This document shows positions 4,298 to 21,770 of a DNA stretch of 29,596 nt, in pieces. The notes under the pieces were generated by a model that saw only the letters and a list, made by a program, of their open reading frames with translations, had not been told where the DNA came from and searched no databases. The stretch is from positions 1-29,596 of the IMG/VR virus record IMGVR_UViG_3300050821_005308; one strand, written 5' to 3'. This stretch comes from a virus. The position numbers were made by a program, and so were the translations under genes. Each line of letters begins with the position of its first letter. Position 1 is the stretch's first letter.

Positions 4298-4588
4298 ATG
4301 GAAGATCGCAAATTTTTACTCATCTACTGGTTCTGTGTTTTCAGCACTCTTTCGGGTCTTTTGCTGTTAACTGCAATCATATTCGTTCCGATACCACAAT
4401 CTAACCAACAGACCGCTAACGTTGCTTTGGGCTTCCTGACAGGTACTTTAATCACCGGGGCTATTGGTTATCTGCTTGGGGGTAATCCGAGCGTTAAGAA
4501 ACCAGATACCACCGTAAGTCAACCCGGAAACAACCCGACTACTATTGTTAATCCACCCCCGACCGGAGAGCCGACTGTTACGGGTTAA
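4298..4588 (+). CDS. Holin-like membrane protein, 96 aa
   Basis: I chose ATG 4298, one base after the previous stop, over a GTG at 4262 that would overlap the upstream gene. Two hydrophobic helices (about residues 6-30 and 42-61) are separated by a polar loop (PQSNQQTAN), then a 35-residue Pro/Thr/Asn-rich tail without membrane segments. Two spans plus a polar tail next to an endolysin match class II holins in layout, but the tail is neither basic nor like a known family. The TAA overlaps the stop codon of the convergent gene 4585-4782. Confidence 0.65.
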   Translation: MEDRKFLLIYWFCVFSTLSGLLLLTAIIFVPIPQSNQQTANVALGFLTGTLITGAIGYLLGGNPSVKKPDTTVSQPGNNPTTIVNPPPTGEPTVTG

Positions 4589-4782
4589 TAAATAACTTTC
4601 CCATCTCTGTCCTCTCGTTCTGTCGGAACTAACTTTTCTTTCAGGCATTTATGACAGTCATAAATAGTGAGTCGGACACGACCCTTAAACTCTTTGCCAT
4701 CATTTGAAAAGATGCTATATTTTTGACTGTGAACCATAGTCCATTTGTGTTTACAGAATAATTGGGTAAGGAATCTTTTCAT
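4585..4782 (-). CDS. Small zinc-finger-like protein, 65 aa
   Basis: Last gene of the long minus-strand unit. The residues FCKHKW (9-14) and a later CHKC (43-46) give a C-x-H ... CxxC set that could bind one zinc, as in many small phage proteins. The rest is basic and polar. Its stop overlaps that of the convergent plus-strand gene, so the two units meet with no spacer and no terminator hairpin. Confidence 0.65.
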   Translation of the reverse strand: MKRFLTQLFCKHKWTMVHSQKYSIFSNDGKEFKGRVRLTIYDCHKCLKEKLVPTEREDRDGKVIY

Positions 4783-4801
4783 CTCACTTTCTTAATCATC
4801 C

Positions 4802-4942
4802 CTACCACAGACTCGACTCCGACTCCTTAATTTCTTCATCGAAAAAGCTGACCAAAACACATAGTACCATAACGCCCAAAATCCATAGCGGTGCCGTTAT
4901 ACCTATGAGTAACCCGACTAATATTGATTTTAAATACTTCAT
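4802..4942 (-). CDS. Single-span membrane protein, 46 aa
   Basis: Open frame between 4585-4782 and 4954-5151 on the same strand. The product starts MKYLKS, then has a hydrophobic stretch of about 27 residues (7-33), then an acidic tail (FFDEEIKESESS). The pattern K-rich start, one span, acidic end suggests an inner-membrane peptide. No family known. Confidence 0.55.
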   Translation of the reverse strand: MKYLKSILVGLLIGITAPLWILGVMVLCVLVSFFDEEIKESESSLW

Positions 4943-4953
4943 TGTGATAAGAA

Positions 4954-5151
4954 TTACATTCTAAATCTTCTTACTGTAAATCCCTGTTTAATCCAATTAG
5001 ATACACCCTCTCCGTTATCCATCCAGCATTCATTAAAAGGCGACCAAAAGAACCATTTATATTTTTTCTTATTGATGGTAATGGTTACAGATATTGGTGT
5101 TTGGCTAACTTTTACTTGCCCATCCTCGTAATAATAGTATTCGTTTTTCAT
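4954..5151 (-). CDS. Hypothetical protein, 65 aa
   Basis: Start chosen at 5151 because GGAGG lies seven bases upstream, inside the end of the preceding gene; an upstream in-frame ATG at 5187 lacks a ribosome site. The protein is rich in aromatic residues (YYYY near the start, KWFFWSPF in the middle) and probably beta-stranded. No known motif. Confidence 0.7.
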   Translation of the reverse strand: MKNEYYYYEDGQVKVSQTPISVTITINKKKYKWFFWSPFNECWMDNGEGVSNWIKQGFTVRRFRM

Positions 5152-5153
5152 GT

Positions 5154-5363
5154 CTATCCTCCAATCCCGTCTACGTGGTCTTTCCAATTCATACTAACGG
5201 TGGTTTTTTCATTCGCCTTTATTTCGTCCAATACATATTTAATCCCATCGGAAACTCCGCTCCAATATTTGGACTCGTCTTGGTAAAATACAGATATTGA
5301 TTTATCGACAACTCTCCGATGTTCTTTCTCAAGCTCCGATATTAACTCTTCAAGCGTTTTCAT
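5154..5363 (-). CDS. Hypothetical helical protein, 69 aa
   Basis: Start at 5363 is set by an ATGA overlap with the upstream gene; ATG 5372 is possible but less likely. Residues 2-20 form a charged heptad-like helix (LEELISELEKEH). Its 3' end supplies the GGAGG ribosome site of the next gene. Function unknown. Confidence 0.7.
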   Translation of the reverse strand: MKTLEELISELEKEHRRVVDKSISVFYQDESKYWSGVSDGIKYVLDEIKANEKTTVSMNWKDHVDGIGG

Positions 5364-5545
5364 ACCGGACATCTTACTATGTTATTTTGTATCAATTCAA
5401 GCATTTCGGATTTTTCAATCCATTCACTACAATCGTCACCGCTTCGTGTTGTCATTTTACAAAGCGCAAGAAGTCTGCGGCCTTTGTCTATTGTCCATTC
5501 GATACCGTTTTCTTCAAATATTTTTACTGCTTCAAGTTTTGTCAT
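5360..5545 (-). CDS. Hypothetical protein, 61 aa
   Basis: Small soluble protein with several helices and three Cys residues that are not in a CxxC pair. It shares an ATGA overlap with the next gene and starts 11 bases after the previous stop. Confidence 0.65.
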   Translation of the reverse strand: MTKLEAVKIFEENGIEWTIDKGRRLLALCKMTTRSGDDCSEWIEKSEMLELIQNNIVRCPV

Positions 5546-5556
5546 GGTTTTAAGAT

Positions 5557-5838
5557 TTATTGGTGGTCATATAAATAATTATCACAGATTGGGCAAAGGT
5601 CATCCATGTTAAGCGGCTCACCGCATGTTTTACATGGCTTTATATAAATATTGGTATTGCCAAAAATCTCGGGTGAGCCATTAATATCAACATAGGACAT
5701 TCCTTCGGATGCACCAAACTGTACTGCTGATATATGTCCAAGTCTTTTGCCGTGGATATTATAGACACTGATGTTAGAAACGAGGCTCAATCCATCATCA
5801 ATTGCATCTTCCACACTTATTAAACCATATTCTTCCAT
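5557..5838 (-). CDS. Zinc-ribbon protein, 93 aa
   Basis: The N-terminal 65 residues form a probable beta-rich domain. The C-terminal part has CKTCGEP (69-75) and CPICDNY (82-88), two CxxC knuckles ten residues apart, as in short zinc ribbons. It follows a 349-base gap without genes, so its translation is not coupled to an upstream gene, unlike most of its neighbours. Role unknown. Confidence 0.75.
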   Translation of the reverse strand: MEEYGLISVEDAIDDGLSLVSNISVYNIHGKRLGHISAVQFGASEGMSYVDINGSPEIFGNTNIYIKPCKTCGEPLNMDDLCPICDNYLYDHQ

Positions 5839-6187
5839 AGTAATATTTTAATCATTAAAATAAGCCCGTATCGCCGGGACTATGCGCAAACCGCGACCTC
5901 CTGCATAACATGGTATTCAAGCGCAGTTCCTGTCCGTTTAAAGGTTATTGTCCAATTTAAGGCGAGGCTGTCACCCCTCGCCTAACAGTTTGAATCTAAA
6001 TTGCCTCGTCGTAGGCAGGTGTCGCGCCCTTTAAAGTAAAGAAGTGACTGCCAATCACTGGACGGCGTTCCTAAAGCCAACTCGTGACTTGTGCCGCAAA
6101 CAGTCCCGTTGACGTTGCTTCCGTGGTTCCTTGTCGGTTTTAACTTCTTATATCTTTTTCACCACTTCCAAAACTCCCACCAATGTA
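5839..6187 (-). ncRNA. Gene-free 349-base stretch; possible structured RNA
   Basis: No frame here looks coding, while genes around it overlap or nearly touch. On the minus strand it can form several local hairpins: GGCGAGG/CCTCGCC at 5961-5982, GCCT/AGGC at 6003-6016, AGTGA/TCACT at 6043-6059 and CCCG/GGGC near 5865-5879 followed by TTATTTT, which could end a transcript. A 7-base long-range pairing (6102-6108 with 5875-5881) is possible but expected by chance in this length. It does not show the conserved parts of tmRNA, RNase P RNA or 6S RNA. It could also be an untranslated leader of the zinc-ribbon gene. Confidence 0.35.
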
Positions 6188-6757
6188 CTACGGGTTCGGG
6201 ACGGTTGCGGTTTGTGTACCCCCGGACACAGCTGAACCTATTGGTGGGGTAGGTATAAACGTCGCACTCGCAGCCACAATAGCGGCAGTCTTAGGGGCTA
6301 TAAACGTTTGGTAAACCCATTCGCCCAAACCTAATGCGATATGAACATAATTCAATGTACCGCCCGATAATAGCGTTGCCCCGGCGTTTAGTATGATGTT
6401 TAATATACCGTTCCACTCCGCATCCGACGACGCATTTTGGAGCTTTCCTTGCAAGAAAGTAACCGCCGCGTTAATATCCGTGGTAGTTAGCCCGAAAGTG
6501 CCTGCAAGCCCTATTAAAGTATTTGTAACGACCGATGGGTCAAGTCCTGTGTCTTTCGCTATCAGGTTAACCAAATCCGTACCCAAAATGGTAAGATTGT
6601 TTTTAAGGTATTGCCCGATAGTGCCTGAATTGATAAGGGCTTGCTGCTGCGTAGTGCTTAAATTGTTCCACGCCTCTTTTAATGCGCTGAATAAAAATGG
6701 GAAGATGCTCTCTAAGAGTTTTCCGATACCGCCTAAGATGTTTGAGATAAATGACAT
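6188..6757 (-). CDS. Unknown Ala/Thr/Leu-rich protein, 189 aa
   Basis: Largest product of this minus unit. The first 32 residues (starting MSFISNILGGIGKLLES) are an amphipathic to hydrophobic helix with several Gly and Phe, similar in composition to membrane-active peptides; there is no Sec cleavage site. The middle is helical with few charges and another hydrophobic part (about 115-150); the end is Pro/Thr/Val-rich and low in charge. It could be a virion, membrane-active or adhesion protein; no family is recognised. The long opposite frame at 6393-6785 is a shadow. Confidence 0.75.
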   Translation of the reverse strand: MSFISNILGGIGKLLESIFPFLFSALKEAWNNLSTTQQQALINSGTIGQYLKNNLTILGTDLVNLIAKDTGLDPSVVTNTLIGLAGTFGLTTTDINAAVTFLQGKLQNASSDAEWNGILNIILNAGATLLSGGTLNYVHIALGLGEWVYQTFIAPKTAAIVAASATFIPTPPIGSAVSGGTQTATVPNP

Positions 6758-6795
6758 GATGTTTTTGTTGTTTTTATGTTGTTAAAGTTAGTTAA

Positions 6796-7044
6796 TTATG
6801 TTAATTGATTGAGAAAAGTTAATTCTTTAGCCTTTTCATGCTGAACCTTTTTAAGTGCTTCGTCTAACGATGAAACAAATACCAACACTTTATCTAAGCT
6901 AACCTTAGATTCTATCGGTATGGACATATTCAAATTAAGGTCATGGAATTTGCCGGATATATTCCAATTTTGATGATTTACATCGGAAACGTTCGACGAA
7001 CATTTATAGGTTGTTGCACCTAATTTTAACTCAAATTCTTTCAT
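6796..7044 (-). CDS. Hypothetical protein, 82 aa
   Basis: Likely two layers of beta strands in residues 1-50 and a C-terminal charged helix (about 53-77). Its ATG overlaps the TGA of the 32-aa gene upstream. No known motif; located just before 6188-6757 in the same operon. Confidence 0.7.
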   Translation of the reverse strand: MKEFELKLGATTYKCSSNVSDVNHQNWNISGKFHDLNLNMSIPIESKVSLDKVLVFVSSLDEALKKVQHEKAKELTFLNQLT

Positions 7045-7139
7045 ATCTTCAATTTACTAAAATACTCTTTAATCCCCTCCAAAACCATCATTGTGCGGTG
7101 GTGGGATATGATGCGGCGTTGGCGGGTTATAAGTTTCAT
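7041..7139 (-). CDS. Very small basic protein, 32 aa
   Basis: Found by reading the gap between two genes. It begins with an ATGA overlap with the gene at 7136-7636 and ends with an ATGA overlap with the gene at 6796-7044; such double coupling is unlikely by chance. The peptide is strongly basic (MKLITRQRRIISHHR start) with a C-terminal amphipathic helix. It could bind nucleic acid or act as a leader for coupling. Confidence 0.55.
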   Translation of the reverse strand: MKLITRQRRIISHHRTMMVLEGIKEYFSKLKI

Positions 7140-7636
7140 TTGCTATGTTTTGCCATCCATTTTATAAAATCCTGTTCGGTAGGTTTACGCGGCACAAGAA
7201 AGCCTATAAATTCCTGCTCGGTCGTATCGGGAACATTAACTATTTTGGTATAATCTTTTGAATGCCCGCTCCCGCCAGTTCCAAACCACATATCTTTCCA
7301 TTCCGTATCAATATGCGCCTTGTAATGAACCGATTTATACGCCTTACCAATAGCGGCATGATGCAAATTCCCGTTAAATTCATTTACCATGTTTTTTATC
7401 TGCTGTCCTTGTTCAAAAGTTTCAGGGTCGGCATATCCCGAAGTATGGTCTGCGTTCCAATGTATGGTTCGGTAATCATCTTCGCTTTTTTCACTAACCG
7501 TATCGGGATGCTGATATAGGTATAGGAAGTACCGTTGTGCCAAACTATCCGAAATAGTGATGTTGCCGATCTTCGTTTGCGCCACTCCTGCCGAAGCTAC
7601 TAAGGCAAGTGCGATGGTTATGTAGAGTGCTTTCAT
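7136..7636 (-). CDS. Exported protein with Sec signal peptide, 166 aa
   Basis: Residues 1-19 form a Sec signal peptide: Lys3, a hydrophobic core (LYITIALALVASAG) and a likely cleavage after VAQ or before QTK, the form usual in Bacteroidota. No lipobox cysteine. The mature part of about 146 residues is soluble with many His, Asp and Lys, including a GTGGSGHS loop. The protein should act in the periplasm or outside; superinfection exclusion or lysis control are options. No family recognised. One base separates it from the next exported gene upstream. Confidence 0.75.
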   Translation of the reverse strand: MKALYITIALALVASAGVAQTKIGNITISDSLAQRYFLYLYQHPDTVSEKSEDDYRTIHWNADHTSGYADPETFEQGQQIKNMVNEFNGNLHHAAIGKAYKSVHYKAHIDTEWKDMWFGTGGSGHSKDYTKIVNVPDTTEQEFIGFLVPRKPTEQDFIKWMAKHSK

Positions 7637-7637
7637 T

Positions 7638-7976
7638 CTAATTTAAGTGTAAATCCGTTAATTCAAATGGTTTTTTAAAGTAAGTAAAAGCCCCAATCTT
7701 TTTATCTCGTTTATAAATAATAATAGCGTGTTGGTGCTTAACAACGGTAAACGGAGTATCACAAATCAGTTTGCCATTTTTATAATTAACGCAAACCATA
7801 TCATTACCAATCGAAACCACTAATTGGCATATATGCGATTCATTTGTGAATAATTGCCATTCAATTTCAGGTGGGGTTCCGTGTTCTATCTTAAACATAC
7901 GGGTATCCTTTTTCGTCTGCCCCAACCCCACCAAAGAGGTTAGTAGGAGGGCGGTTAAGAGGGTTAAAGATTTCAT
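7638..7976 (-). CDS. Exported protein with Sec signal peptide, 112 aa
   Basis: The N-terminus (Lys2, hydrophobic core LTLLTALLLTSLVG, then LGQTKK) is a clear Sec signal peptide and ends like that of the neighbour 7136-7636 (AQTK versus GQTK). The mature part is about 92 residues, likely beta-rich, with three Cys that could form a disulfide in the periplasm. The overlap with the upstream gene is ATGA. Function unknown. Confidence 0.75.
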   Translation of the reverse strand: MKSLTLLTALLLTSLVGLGQTKKDTRMFKIEHGTPPEIEWQLFTNESHICQLVVSIGNDMVCVNYKNGKLICDTPFTVVKHQHAIIIYKRDKKIGAFTYFKKPFELTDLHLN

Positions 7977-8320
7977 GCGGATACCCTCCTTGCTTTCCGT
8001 TTACCTGTATTGCCATGTGGTTTTGGCTTTTCATCAACGGGTTTGCACTTCTTTTTTAATTCGTTTAATTCCCGTGAAAGCCTTGTGCTATACTCTGCGT
8101 TCGATTGAATAACCCTGTCCCTTTCCGCAAGTTTACGTTGCATCTCCTCTCGAACTTCCTCCTCTGCTGACTTTACATAAGCCTGCGAATGTCCATTGTA
8201 ACAAAAGAACGACTTCTTGTCCCGCCTGCGTTGTGTGTCAAAGGTATCGGGTACATAAAACACACATCCACAACTAATGCAAATATGTTCGGTAAATTCT
8301 ATTGATAAGCTCACGTTCAT
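7973..8320 (-). CDS. Zinc-finger plus coiled-coil protein, 115 aa
   Basis: Residues 14-19 (CISCGC) and a later C-x-N-G-H set (Cys40, His44) can form a zinc site of the kind found in small phage and HNH-related proteins. Residues 52-92 form a long charged helix with heptad pattern (EEEVREEMQRKLAERDRV), probably a coiled coil. The end is basic and Pro-rich (KRKARR). No nuclease residues are evident. It is followed by the two exported proteins in the operon. Confidence 0.7.
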   Translation of the reverse strand: MNVSLSIEFTEHICISCGCVFYVPDTFDTQRRRDKKSFFCYNGHSQAYVKSAEEEVREEMQRKLAERDRVIQSNAEYSTRLSRELNELKKKCKPVDEKPKPHGNTGKRKARRVSA

Positions 8321-8335
8321 TTCTTTTAAATTTTA

Positions 8336-8434
8336 CTACACCACCTCCAAAGTTTCAGACCTTACAATATCATCGATGTTGATAGCGTCGATAACCTCTT
8401 GCGGCAGGTCGATTTCAAATTCCAGTTCGGGCAT
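8336..8434 (-). CDS. Possible small acidic protein, 32 aa
   Basis: Frame starting MPELEFEIDLPQEVIDAI and ending before the zinc-finger gene. It overlaps the upstream gene by 20 bases and has no clear ribosome site. A longer version from 8530 would overlap by 116 bases and is unlikely. The product is acidic and could be a short helix protein; weak call. Confidence 0.4.
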   Translation of the reverse strand: MPELEFEIDLPQEVIDAINIDDIVRSETLEVV

Positions 8435-8672
8435 TATTTGGCGCAGGCTTGGTGAGTAATATAGTTTTATCAAACTCAAGTATAAAATCACGCGCTTTTT
8501 GCGGTAGGGATATGTAAGGCAATCCCCCAATACGGATTTCCTCGTTCATTACATCTGCAATCGGGAATACATCACATATAGCTACTGATATGGCGCAGTT
8601 TTCCCATGCCCTACCAGTACAATAGGCACTTTTCCTAAGTACTTCTTTGGTGACTTTTATTTTTAATCTCAT
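8415..8672 (-). CDS. Hypothetical protein, 85 aa
   Basis: Start at 8672 chosen for GAGGAGG upstream and the ATGA overlap with the previous stop; an in-frame ATG at 8708 would run into the upstream gene. The first residues are basic (MRLKIKVTKEVLRKS), the remainder mixed, with three Cys that are not paired as a finger. It resembles small phage proteins of unknown function; no motif is named. Confidence 0.65.
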   Translation of the reverse strand: MRLKIKVTKEVLRKSAYCTGRAWENCAISVAICDVFPIADVMNEEIRIGGLPYISLPQKARDFILEFDKTILLTKPAPNNARTGI

Positions 8673-8917
8673 ATAAATTCGTCCTCCTCTATTTCGCCAT
8701 TGAGCCATTGGTACGCCGAGATAGCTGCGTTTTCTACATTATCGTCGTGATTTCCCTCATATATCTCATCTTGGTCAATGTCATTTTTTATGACGTGCAT
8801 TTGTTCGTCAATGGCTTCCCAATTATTATCTCCAAAAAATGAATATTGTGGGAGCGTCTTTTTTAGATCGGATAGCTTTTGTACCATGCTGTCAATCTCG
8901 GTTTGGTTTCTTTTCAT
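8669..8917 (-). CDS. Acidic hypothetical protein, 82 aa
   Basis: About one quarter of the residues are Asp or Glu, concentrated at 45-62 and at the end (EIEEDEFI). The N-terminal half is a helix with Lys/Leu. Acidic small proteins of this type are common in phages, some mimicking DNA, but nothing specific is seen here. Start/stop coupled to the next gene. Confidence 0.7.
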   Translation of the reverse strand: MKRNQTEIDSMVQKLSDLKKTLPQYSFFGDNNWEAIDEQMHVIKNDIDQDEIYEGNHDDNVENAAISAYQWLNGEIEEDEFI

Positions 8918-8918
8918 A

Positions 8919-9107
8919 TCATTTGGTTTTTAAACTCCTTACTATATCCCCACCCTGCAACAACTCCACGTTGTCGCCATGCCTCACTGGTTTCATTACA
9001 GCCCATATCCCCCATCCCGTAAAGGACAGGACGATCAATACGAACAGCCAAAACTGCCACAGGCGGATGATGATGCCGGGGATGGTGGGAGGGGCGAAGG
9101 TTTTCAT
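8919..9107 (-). CDS. Single-span membrane protein, 62 aa
   Basis: One strongly hydrophobic helix (about residues 14-37, with four Trp) follows a short Pro-rich N-terminus; a polar C-terminal part of 25 residues follows (RHGDNVELLQGGDI). It overlaps the upstream gene by four bases. A host-envelope role is likely; no family known. Confidence 0.7.
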   Translation of the reverse strand: MKTFAPPTIPGIIIRLWQFWLFVLIVLSFTGWGIWAVMKPVRHGDNVELLQGGDIVRSLKTK

Positions 9108-9319
9108 GCTATGCGTGTTGCTGTACAGTAGTCGTTTTTGACTCCTGTATATGAAAATAACAATTTACTATCAACGCCCTGATTGCTATTAAGGCGGTTA
9201 AGTGTTGATTTAAAAGAAGCTATCCGGTCAGCATGTATTTGAATTGTACCATTAATAGGTGTTTCCGAAATAACATCCGCAATACTCGGTTTTACTTCTA
9301 CTGGTTCTATTTTGTTCAT
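9104..9319 (-). CDS. Hypothetical protein, 71 aa, first gene of minus unit
   Basis: First coding region after the tRNA-like RNA; its ATG lies 18 bases beyond the end of that RNA. The product is soluble and polar with a likely beta-strand set in residues 20-60. No motif recognised. The leader in front is AT-rich and contains no strong ribosome site, as is usual for Bacteroidota. Confidence 0.65.
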   Translation of the reverse strand: MNKIEPVEVKPSIADVISETPINGTIQIHADRIASFKSTLNRLNSNQGVDSKLLFSYTGVKNDYCTATRIA

Positions 9320-9337
9320 ATCTCATTATATTAATGT

Positions 9338-9449
9338 CGGGGGAACGGGAATCGAACCCGCTCTTCCTTATTGTCACAGAAACCGCTAAGTCGCTGTATT
9401 GACACGCCACCAGCCGTTGTCCGGACTTATAATGCTGGTGAATCCCCCG
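9338..9449 (-). ncRNA. tRNA-like structured RNA, 112 nt
   Basis: Read on the minus strand, positions 1-7 (CGGGGGA, 9449-9443) pair perfectly with 106-112 (TCCCCCG), next to a normal T arm: stem GCGGG/CCCGT and loop TTCGATT. Between them lie a 7-bp arm (10-16 with 36-42, 19-nt loop) and an interrupted 8-bp arm (46-49/75-78 and 53-56/71-74) with a 14-nt loop containing CTTAG. A normal tRNA would have 4-bp D and 5-bp anticodon arms; these arms are larger and no standard anticodon loop can be drawn. CCA is not encoded. It is either an odd or decayed tRNA, or a tRNA mimic acting as leader RNA. Confidence 0.55.
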
Positions 9450-9458
9450 ATAACAATA

Positions 9459-9488
9459 CAAACATACAACAAACATATTATATCACAA
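9459..9488 (-). promoter_or_regulatory. Strong Bacteroidota-type promoter of the minus unit
   Basis: On the minus strand TTG (9488-9486), a 19-base spacer and TATGTTTG (9466-9459) match the -33/-7 consensus exactly. A second TATGTTTG lies 11 bases upstream (9477-9470). The predicted start, about 9450-9454, falls at the 5' end of the tRNA-like RNA. Confidence 0.65.
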
Positions 9489-9615
9489 AATAAACTTATT
9501 AACATTTTGTATTAAACTGTGTTAATAACTTGTTTGAAATAAATTTTCATAAGTCCCAAACATTACTTTACTTTGTTCCGTACAAACCGCCCAACGGCAT
9601 AAATGAAAAGGAAAG

Positions 9616-14325: not shown

Positions 14326-14964
14326 ATGAATACTATTCAGAATCAGTACGCCTATTTTTTCTCTAAACTTGGCTACACCACGGAATTTTTCCCCGAAAAG
14401 GGATTATTCTATCTCAAAGAAATTGAAACTTATTGCAAATTATGCGATGATCCCGCGCCGCCGGATATAGTTAACCGGGCTATTGAGCAGGCTAAAAAAC
14501 ACACTATCGTTTTGCTGGAGGGCGCATTAACCTACCGGGCGTACATGGTTTATCAGGGAGAGTATGCGGCAGAGGGAATTTTTGTAACCAACGGTGATAA
14601 ATATTCCCCGTTTTATTATAGCGGCGGCGATTTCTATTTAGATAACTTTGAGAAGGAATTAATAAACATGACGCTTGCAATACGCTGCGGCGAAGATGTT
14701 ATCTGCCAGCGTTGCGGCTCTATCAATGATTTCACCATATCTAAACCATCGCTTCATTACAAAGCCACTTGCAAATGCGGTACTTATATAACTAACCTGT
14801 CTGAAAATAAGCCATCGCTACTTCATTTCGGAAAGTACAAAGGTCGTGCTATAAAATCCATGTCAACAAAAGAGGAAATTGACTACCTGAATTGGGGATT
14901 GTCGCAAGGTATATTTAAAGGCAAACTTAAAAAAGATATTCAGGAAAGGATTTCTGAATTATGA
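14326..14964 (+). CDS. Zinc-ribbon protein with FGKYKGR domain, 212 aa
   Basis: Start ATG 14326 follows the leader hairpin; an upstream TTG at 14284 lies inside the hairpin and is rejected. Residues 1-115 are unique. Residues 127-130 (CQRC) and 149-151 (CKC) give a zinc-binding pair. The end, LLHFGKYKGRAIKSM (166-180) with YLNWGL (187-192), matches the small DUF3820/ExoX C-terminal type of domain, which accompanies nucleases and phage replication genes. It overlaps the primase gene by four bases, so a role in replication is likely. Confidence 0.75.
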   Translation: MNTIQNQYAYFFSKLGYTTEFFPEKGLFYLKEIETYCKLCDDPAPPDIVNRAIEQAKKHTIVLLEGALTYRAYMVYQGEYAAEGIFVTNGDKYSPFYYSGGDFYLDNFEKELINMTLAIRCGEDVICQRCGSINDFTISKPSLHYKATCKCGTYITNLSENKPSLLHFGKYKGRAIKSMSTKEEIDYLNWGLSQGIFKGKLKKDIQERISEL

Positions 14965-17276
14965 ACCAATCTGTATACCTTGACCTTTTTAAAATAGGAT
15001 TAAAGCCAATCCCCTTAATATGGAGCGCAACCGAACGAGTAGCAAAGAGCCATGTAATCGAACATAGCACTATAACGGCAGAATCCTATAACGAAAGTAA
15101 TTATCAAACTTTCTTACCTGCCAATCATAAGGAAAAAGAGGTTAACGGGATAGGTTTAAAGCTATTCCCGCCTTTCGGTATGATCGATTTCGACCTTAAA
15201 AATACCTCTAATAAGTCTCTTTATACGCAATGGGTTAAAGCCGTCTCATCGATCGACGATGACATACTAAGCAAGGTTTGCATTGAAAAAACGCGAAACA
15301 ATGGTTTTCACGTATATATCAAATACAAGGGACTTACCTCTAAATCATCGTTGGCACGGGAAGAAAACGGCGAAGAGTGTATAGCTATTTACACAGGCGG
15401 GGTGTTATCTTACTGCGCCCCAACACCGGGGTATGAGATAACGCACAACTCATTTACAGACATCGAGGAGTTGACAGCAGATGAATTTGATATACTCACG
15501 TCCTGCGCTATATCCTTTAATAAATACGAGGAAAAATATACTCAAACATCCAACCTGCTTATTACCTACCCTTTAGAATATGAAACGCAATGCCTTTTGT
15601 TTGACCGTAATATAACAGACGAGGCGTTTACCCAACTTATAAACGACATGGGTTTATACGCCGCAGATAACTACCATTACAAACCAAAGGATAAATTTAC
15701 TGCTTTTTTGCGTAGGGGTTCAAAAGCTGTGTATTCTGCTAAAGTATATTACGGTACAAAAAACCTTCAACTTTTTACATCTTCAATTGCCGGGTATCCG
15801 CATTTTCAGGACAGGGTTAGCAAGGATGATACGGCATGGAATTTAAGCCCGTCCCGTATTATTTACTATAAGAATGACCGCGACTGGACGGCAACATTAG
15901 AGGAAATAAAATTAATTTGTGACAGCATCGGTATAGAGGTTGTGCAAAATCAGCCCATAACCAATCAATCCATCATCCTACCCGAAAGGCTAAAGTTTCC
16001 TTACGATATTTTCCCGGACGAGATACTTAATTTCATTAACGCAAATCATATACAGCATGAATATTTAGCCGGGGCTGCATTGGGCGTTGTTTCCACGATG
16101 ATAGGCAATTCAGCTACATTACTGGCAAATGGCAACTACTTTGTAAAGCCTATCCTATACATGGCTATTGTTGCCCCGCCCGGCGCCTCAAAAACGCCTG
16201 CTTTAAAAGCGATGTTCTCAAATTTAGAGGCTTGTGACGCTCATTATTACGCTGAATTTTTGAAGGAAAAAAAAGAATACCGGGAACAAACGGCAGCTTA
16301 TAAAAACCAACAAAAAGGTGGCAGTCTAAAAGAACCTTTACCGCCTAAATTGCAACAGTTTTTAATAAAGGATAGTACGATTGAAATGGTTATTAAGATA
16401 CTGTCTTACAACCCGGACGGGTGCTGTATCCTTGCTGACGAATTATCCGGTTTTTTAAAACGTTTTAATCGTTACGGCGAAAATGATGAAGTGCAAAAAT
16501 GGCTCGAATTATGGAGCGGCTCACCTGTATTGATGCAGCGTATCAGCCGTGACGAGGATAAAGTGCAAAAGCCTTTTTGTTCTATCATAGGTGGTATTCA
16601 GCCCGGCGTATTAGAGTCACTTAGTTCGCAAGACAATGAGCATAACGGGTTCTATCATCGTTTCCTTTTCGTCTACCCCGAACCTCAAAAAAAGCCCGAC
16701 TGGAATTACTACGAGATACCTGCGCCTATTATTACAGACCTTGAGAATTACTACCAAAAATTGTTTAATGCACGCGCCTATAACCGTACTTACAAATTAA
16801 CTACTGATGCTAATTTAATGTATGCAGAATGGTTCAATTATAAAAACCGGAAATATAATCACGCTACACAGGATAATGTTAAAGGGGTTATCGCAAAATA
16901 TCAGGATTATTGCCTTCGCTTCGCGCTGATTATACAATACATGCATGACGGCGATATTTACAATCTCTGGGTTAGTAAAACCAGTGTTGAGCGCGCGATA
17001 CGTTTGACTGAATACTTTTTAGGCAATATGCATAAATCCATGAAAATTTTAGCTCCGGTCACACCAGTCGATAAATTACAGGATAATAAATTAGAGTACT
17101 ACCGTGCATTACCGGATAGTTTCACCCCGGCAAAAGCGATAAGTATTTCGGAAACATTTGGCATTAAAAGCGATTATTGCCGAGTTTTACTCAATAGATG
17201 GTCACAGGGCAATGATAAGATTTTAACCAAAACAGGCGATACAAAGAACACAATTTATGATAAGATATTTGTTTAA
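14961..17276 (+). CDS. Primase-polymerase and DUF3987-type helicase fusion
   Basis: Replication protein of 771 aa. N-terminal part (about 10-180): archaeo-eukaryotic-primase-like, with metal-binding Asp pair in MIDFDLK (74-80) and GFHVYIKY (115-122), matching the DhD and sxH motifs. C-terminal part (about 345-600): P-loop ATPase of the DUF3987 type, Walker A APPGASKT (405-412), Walker B CCILADE (488-494), then LWSGSP and IIGGIQP motifs. Such proteins prime and unwind DNA at the origin. The last 170 residues are likely helical with a winged-helix end. It follows its partner gene with an ATGA overlap; an AT-rich repeat cluster follows directly. Confidence 0.88.
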   Translation: MNQSVYLDLFKIGLKPIPLIWSATERVAKSHVIEHSTITAESYNESNYQTFLPANHKEKEVNGIGLKLFPPFGMIDFDLKNTSNKSLYTQWVKAVSSIDDDILSKVCIEKTRNNGFHVYIKYKGLTSKSSLAREENGEECIAIYTGGVLSYCAPTPGYEITHNSFTDIEELTADEFDILTSCAISFNKYEEKYTQTSNLLITYPLEYETQCLLFDRNITDEAFTQLINDMGLYAADNYHYKPKDKFTAFLRRGSKAVYSAKVYYGTKNLQLFTSSIAGYPHFQDRVSKDDTAWNLSPSRIIYYKNDRDWTATLEEIKLICDSIGIEVVQNQPITNQSIILPERLKFPYDIFPDEILNFINANHIQHEYLAGAALGVVSTMIGNSATLLANGNYFVKPILYMAIVAPPGASKTPALKAMFSNLEACDAHYYAEFLKEKKEYREQTAAYKNQQKGGSLKEPLPPKLQQFLIKDSTIEMVIKILSYNPDGCCILADELSGFLKRFNRYGENDEVQKWLELWSGSPVLMQRISRDEDKVQKPFCSIIGGIQPGVLESLSSQDNEHNGFYHRFLFVYPEPQKKPDWNYYEIPAPIITDLENYYQKLFNARAYNRTYKLTTDANLMYAEWFNYKNRKYNHATQDNVKGVIAKYQDYCLRFALIIQYMHDGDIYNLWVSKTSVERAIRLTEYFLGNMHKSMKILAPVTPVDKLQDNKLEYYRALPDSFTPAKAISISETFGIKSDYCRVLLNRWSQGNDKILTKTGDTKNTIYDKIFV

Positions 17277-21737: not shown

Positions 21738-21770
21738 TTTGGTTTTTTGGTAGTTATTTTTGTATGTTTG
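21738..21770 (+). promoter_or_regulatory. Candidate promoter of glycan/chaperonin unit
   Basis: TTTG at 21738-21741, a 21-base spacer and TATGTTTG at 21763-21770. The start would be near 21776, giving a leader of about 110 bases before ATG 21886. Confidence 0.5.

Follow-up and report, generated by a model that had tools for sequence, protein, structure and literature searches.

The 29,596-nt viral contig analysed here (IMG/VR record IMGVR_UViG_3300050821_005308; hereafter the window) carries a 112-nt tRNA-like RNA (9338..9449, minus strand) whose acceptor stem and T arm are those of a tRNA but which has no usable anticodon. Our favoured reading of the sequence, which we hold with about even confidence, is that this element is a tRNA-derived, non-decoding RNA forming the 5′ leader of a leftward operon. 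The features on which it rests can be read from the letters: a promoter, a predicted start 5 nt before the acceptor, intact tRNA-like ends, no anticodon arm, and an ATG 18 nt further on. The host of the phage is probably one of the Bacteroidota bacteria.

Architecture of the tRNA-like element

From 9449 to 9338 on the minus strand, to which all coordinates in this section refer, the element reads CGGGGGA-TT-CACCAGC(19 nt)GCTGGTG-GCG-TGTC-AAT-ACAG(14 nt)CTGTGACA-(10 nt)-GCGGG-TTCGATT-CCCGT-TCCCCCG, and is followed by A. The acceptor stem, formed by CGGGGGA (9443..9449) and TCCCCCG (9338..9344), has seven Watson-Crick pairs without mismatch and pair probabilities of 0.56-1.0. It begins with C1-G72, the discriminator A73 follows at 9337, opposite T at 9450, and CCA is not encoded after the 3′ strand. 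The T arm, GCGGG-TTCGATT-CCCGT (9345..9361), is identical to the tmRNA T arm at 15 positions. Its consensus bases are complete, U8 and A73 are also present, and the acceptor/T-arm helix comprises 12 stacked pairs, free of mismatches. The sequence-only reading had described an RNA of 112 nt closed by a perfect 7-bp acceptor-like stem, with a normal T arm, and the pairing of 9449-9443 with 9344-9338 and the T arm at 9361-9345 bear this out.

The two inner arms, described earlier as oversized and of 7 and 8 bp, fared unequally. The second ('D') arm, CACCAGC/GCTGGTG (9408..9440; strands 9440-9434 and 9414-9408), does consist of seven perfect pairs and closes a 19-nt loop, but the '8-bp' third arm, TGTC-AAT-ACAG ... 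CTGT-GACA (9372..9404), is 4+4 bp around a 3-nt AAT bulge, with a 14-nt loop. The element has no 7-nt anticodon loop with U33 on a 5-bp stem. Inside the loop of the second arm lies the self-complementary GTCCGGAC (9419-9426), a palindrome that could support a kissing dimer between two RNA copies or be half of a DNA operator.

Searches for known RNAs

ARAGORN and Rfam searches assigned no normal cloverleaf; a decayed phage tRNA and a tRNA mimic used for processing are both candidates. ARAGORN called no tRNA in the window, and Rfam at curated cut-offs gave no match there; the element did not reach the RF00005 gathering cut-off and matched no Rfam riboswitch. At relaxed Rfam cut-offs only the T arm was recovered, as part of a tmRNA, along with a match, no better than chance, to the tRNA-like element of a plant virus. 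Two special cases were tried and rejected. For a tRNA with an intron or an odd architecture, low-threshold ARAGORN with introns allowed returned only mismatched acceptors and invalid anticodons; for a tmRNA, ARAGORN (including low threshold) and Rfam gave no call and no tag reading frame. Among the attributes of a functional tRNA, the element thus has the acceptor and the TTCRA T arm and lacks the anticodon stem-loop and the RF00005 score. In having tRNA-like ends without decoding capacity it is like a pseudo-tRNA, and the promoter and the order of the ORFs suggest that it would be transcribed within a longer RNA.

Folding and chance pairing

The nested perfect stems had been taken to make chance pairing unlikely, which holds for the ends of the element and fails for its inner arms. 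We shuffled the whole window, preserving dinucleotides, and looked for a 5-bp T stem, the adjacent 7-nt strand and a perfect partner for that strand at a tRNA-like distance. An acceptor of seven Watson-Crick pairs, a 5-bp T arm with TTCRA and this spacing coincide at one place in the window and in 4 of 200 shuffled windows. The acceptor plus T arm is beyond chance, and this result is solid. The inner arms, taken alone, are within chance (not significant): a 7-bp first stem in that place formed in 1.8% of shuffled interiors, while 13% matched the energy of the two arms and 7% that of the weaker arm.

Folding with ViennaRNA gave −41.6 kcal/mol for the four-way junction and −42.8 kcal/mol, 1.2 better, for a three-way alternative. 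The lowest-energy fold keeps the acceptor and T arm, makes one long hairpin of the interior and leaves the 'D' region unstructured; the pair probability of the D arm is ~0.19. The element as a whole folds with z = −2.7. A covariance model of the element matches ordinary phage tRNAs end to end, and does so equally with either inner fold: tRNA-type matches numbered 57 for the cloverleaf model (R1), 55 for the three-way model (R2) and 17 for a model without inner pairs (R3). Because R1 and R2 match phage tRNAs alike, such matches are no evidence for the inner arms or for a cloverleaf.

Promoter and presumed downstream operon

Upstream of the element, TTTG (9486..9489, minus strand), the −33 element of a Bacteroidota-type promoter (consensus per PMC7366714), lies 19 nt from the −7 box TATGTTTG (TAnnTTTG; 9459..9466, minus strand), giving a TTTG-N19-TATGTTTG promoter that spans 9489-9459. 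The box ends nine nucleotides before the acceptor, in agreement with the claim that the RNA begins within about ten bases of it. It can fairly be called the best promoter in the window, though it is not unique, as five promoters so spaced occur there, against 1.3 expected. Another well-spaced TTTG-TATGTTTG promoter, at 21738-21770 (plus strand), precedes genes for glycosyltransferase, FkbM-type methyltransferase and GroEL.

The flavobacterial −7 box occupies −12 to −5 (PMC9723704), which puts the predicted +1 at 9454 and a 5-nt leader ahead of the acceptor. Promoter and predicted start together support the sequence-only reading in placing a tRNA-like RNA at a probable transcription start. The second copy of TATGTTTG, at 9470-9477 (minus strand), is 11 bases from the first, and with the box present twice two starts are possible, near 9465 and 9454.

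The first ORF of the leftward operon (9104..9319, minus strand; 71 aa) has no Pfam or PHROG match, and its ATG is the one 18 nt past the acceptor stem. It belongs to a leftward run of small ORFs (4585..9319, minus strand) that, judging from their close spacing and common strand, are presumably co-transcribed as one operon. The leftward messenger would have a 5′ UTR of ~135 nt, whereas the median length in Flavobacterium psychrophilum is 24 nt (PMC9723704).

Relatives of the window phage

The only other copy of the element is in a near-identical contig. Across 13.6 kb the two sequences are distinguished by a single substitution and an 18-base indel, both outside the element, so that the two copies are identical. 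When homologues were sought through the adjacent gene, through D-arm, acceptor and T-arm patterns, and through the exonuclease and helicase, only this contig carried the element; in one of these searches the other matches were unrelated coding DNA. No helicase relatives were found among genome contigs. About two dozen helicase-related contigs, covered in part, gave no match to the covariance model and had nothing at the site that compares with this tRNA-like RNA, and a search of 16 whole relative records returned the near-identical contig only. Annotated phages and plasmids, searched with the element and the sister elements described below, gave nothing informative.

Each of the more distant relatives found lacks the element. 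L018 (62% helicase identity) has TATATTTG ahead of its leftward transcript, whose leader is short and contains no RNA of this kind. In L030 (55% helicase identity), genuine genes for tRNA-Pro and tRNA-Ile lie within 1 kb of non-coding DNA (14925-15922), together with an orphan T arm (GCGGTTCAATTCCGC at 15496).

Recurrence in other phages

Scanning for TTTG followed by GCGGGTTCGATTCCCG at an element-like distance yielded at least 120 phage contigs, preselected in this way on the T arm and TTTG. Among the matches listed, 113 T arms lay outside ARAGORN tRNAs, and 15 of these had a perfect acceptor closing an RNA of 95-130 nt; the same count was 1.24 (maximum 3) with the upstream sequence shuffled. 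For these T-arm-selected contigs among the matches listed, oversized tRNA-like RNAs are therefore ~12-fold over shuffles, and the window element is not unique in kind. Some of the oversized cases belong to large arrays and are tRNAs that carry inserts (L142, L106, L127).

A sister set (L183, L184, L189, L191 and L192) has an AGTCAGG...CCTGACT acceptor, a tRNA-like D arm and a replaced anticodon arm. In L191 both partners are changed in four acceptor pairs out of seven, with the pairing intact, a pattern seen in one lineage and representing one or few events. Compensatory acceptor changes are thus seen in the sister set; the window element is without a diverged homologue. In L189, L191 and L192 the ATG of a small ORF follows the tRNA-like RNA after 21-27 nt, and in L189 a TATATTTG box precedes it by 12 nt. 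The layout of these three elements is that of the window, and their sequence is unrelated to the window element. Nearness to an ATG is weak evidence, as phage genes are closely packed.

Several contigs hold further RNAs of unusual build. L060 (IMGVR_UViG_3300047300_000456, minus strand, 4144-4048 and 3834-3746) has two tRNA-like RNAs between small phage genes, with the acceptor AGTCAGG/CCTGACT in common, nearly identical T arms, and interiors that differ and are non-canonical. L142 has a tRNA array that packs 30 tRNAs and a tmRNA into 12.5 kb; among them, on the minus strand, are three tRNA-like RNAs that reach 112-139 nt (their T arms lie at 6661, 6480 and 6258). In one of these three the anticodon loop is Tyr-like, with GTA, but position 33 is G rather than U; the RNA at 6258 has a Glu-type anticodon loop and a very long variable region. 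In L106 (plus strand, T arm 7645) the anticodon loop of a tRNA-Leu(TAA) is extended, immediately 3′ of the anticodon, by an insert of ~26 nt, which is much smaller than a group I intron.

Interpretation and alternatives

A retained leader is favoured by the combination of perfect ends, a rebuilt interior and a recurring layout. Also in its support, the promoter and predicted start adjoin the element, the predicted 5′ UTR far exceeds the F. psychrophilum median, and the short leader of L018 is without such an RNA. The compensated acceptor of the sister set and the enrichment among the matches listed point the same way. With its inner arms expanded, the element would be unable to act in decoding. 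Host tRNA-maturation enzymes would instead recognise the acceptor/T-arm helix and T loop: RNase P would remove the five leader nucleotides, and the 3′ tRNA-processing machinery, by cutting after A73, would release a stable tRNA-like RNA and at the same time give the messenger a new 5′ end just before the first start codon. If uncut, the closed 5′ end might shield the messenger from 5′-end-dependent decay. Several points count against such a leader: the window element has no diverged homologue that would show selection on it, its interior can be folded in two ways, the recurring cases are not its sequence homologues and their nearness to an ATG is weak evidence, and the lengthened tRNAs in large arrays show that functionless decay also occurs.

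That decay is the basis of the main rival, which we consider rather unlikely: a decaying tRNA gene, most like tRNA-Pro, would have lost its anticodon arm through insertions and would now be without function. C1-G72 and A73, shared with tRNA-Pro, are proline determinants in E. coli (PMC9976931), the related phage L030 has intact tRNA-Pro and tRNA-Ile, and insert-bearing tRNAs do occur in large-phage arrays (for example L142 6258 and L106 7645). The acceptor of a freely drifting relic should decay too, however, and all 12 acceptor and T-stem pairs are free of mismatches. The third arm retains no remnant of an anticodon loop, and the G+C content of the element, 0.55, is well above the 0.40 of its surroundings. 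Descent from tRNA-Pro is a lead suggested by the acceptor end. Proline identity also needs G35 and G36 (PMC9976931); as these other strong determinants are in the anticodon, the window element has no place for them.

The same absence bears on a reading that we consider very unlikely, in which the leader releases a stable decoy that binds tRNA-handling host proteins (ProRS, or tRNA-cleaving defence nucleases) during early host takeover. The Pro-type acceptor end and the position as predicted first product of a phage operon would suit a decoy, and in other phages tRNA loci are reported to counter tRNA-cleaving defences (PMC13096335). Yet the anticodon and the normal variable loop, where such nucleases cut, are missing, as are sites for G35 and G36.

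Highly improbable, in our judgement, is chance pairing, or a set of inverted repeats serving as DNA operators between divergent operons. CACCAGC/GCTGGTG and GTCCGGAC are indeed inverted repeats in DNA next to a divergent promoter region, and the inner arms are within chance, but an acceptor with a consensus T arm appeared in 2% of shuffled windows even with the promoter placement left uncounted, and an operator would leave the T-loop consensus unexplained. It is common for phages to have the 3′ end of a tRNA in attP, but we can hardly credit that the element was copied from the 3′ end of a host tRNA and retained as the phage attachment site, given that its last 23 nt are not found exactly in any of 84,980 species genomes, that the 5′ acceptor strand is present too, and that no integrase is among the ORFs searched.

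A broader proposal goes with the retained-leader reading, though we think it unlikely to hold: that anticodon-less tRNA-like leaders, which separate the promoter of an operon from its first start codon and use host tRNA maturation to cut and shape messengers, may form a widespread unannotated phage class, of which the window, L189, L191 and L192 would be independent examples. We found no description of such phage leaders in the literature. Phage tRNA counts come from programs that demand a normal anticodon arm, and RNAs with a rebuilt interior and an intact acceptor and T arm are missed by them. If these RNAs are processed, phages shape messengers through tRNA maturation; as relics, they would illustrate the way in which phage tRNAs are lost.

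Comparison with known systems

The window element resembles tRNA-Other, a pseudo-tRNA of Bacillus cereus, in being tRNA-like, non-translational and, as predicted here, inside a longer transcript (PMC3399842). tRNA-Other was recruited from an inactivated tRNA (PMC3399842). A Trp anticodon survives in tRNA-Other, and software recognises it as a tRNA; the window element has no anticodon loop and heads a presumed operon.

With canonical phage tRNAs, such as the tRNA-Pro of L030, the element shares C1-G72, A73, the T arm, an unencoded CCA and possibly a promoter directly upstream. It differs in being 112 rather than 74 nt long, in having longer arms in place of the D and anticodon arms, and in being missed by ARAGORN. 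The AGTCAGG RNAs of L183, L184, L189, L191 and L192 likewise combine a normal acceptor and T arm with the lack of a normal anticodon arm, but their sequence is unrelated and their D arm is tRNA-like; Rfam recognises at least those of L189 and L192 as tRNA (35.6 and 35.0 bits), whereas it does not so recognise the window element.

The tRNA-like domain of tmRNA is comparable in its 15-base T-arm identity and in the similarity of the lowest-energy fold. Unlike tmRNA, the window element has C1-G72, no G3-U70 alanine signal and no coding part. Mimicry of tRNA in a bacterial 5′ UTR has parallels in the thrS operator and the yjdF riboswitch; the thrS operator is without an acceptor arm, whereas the window element has one.
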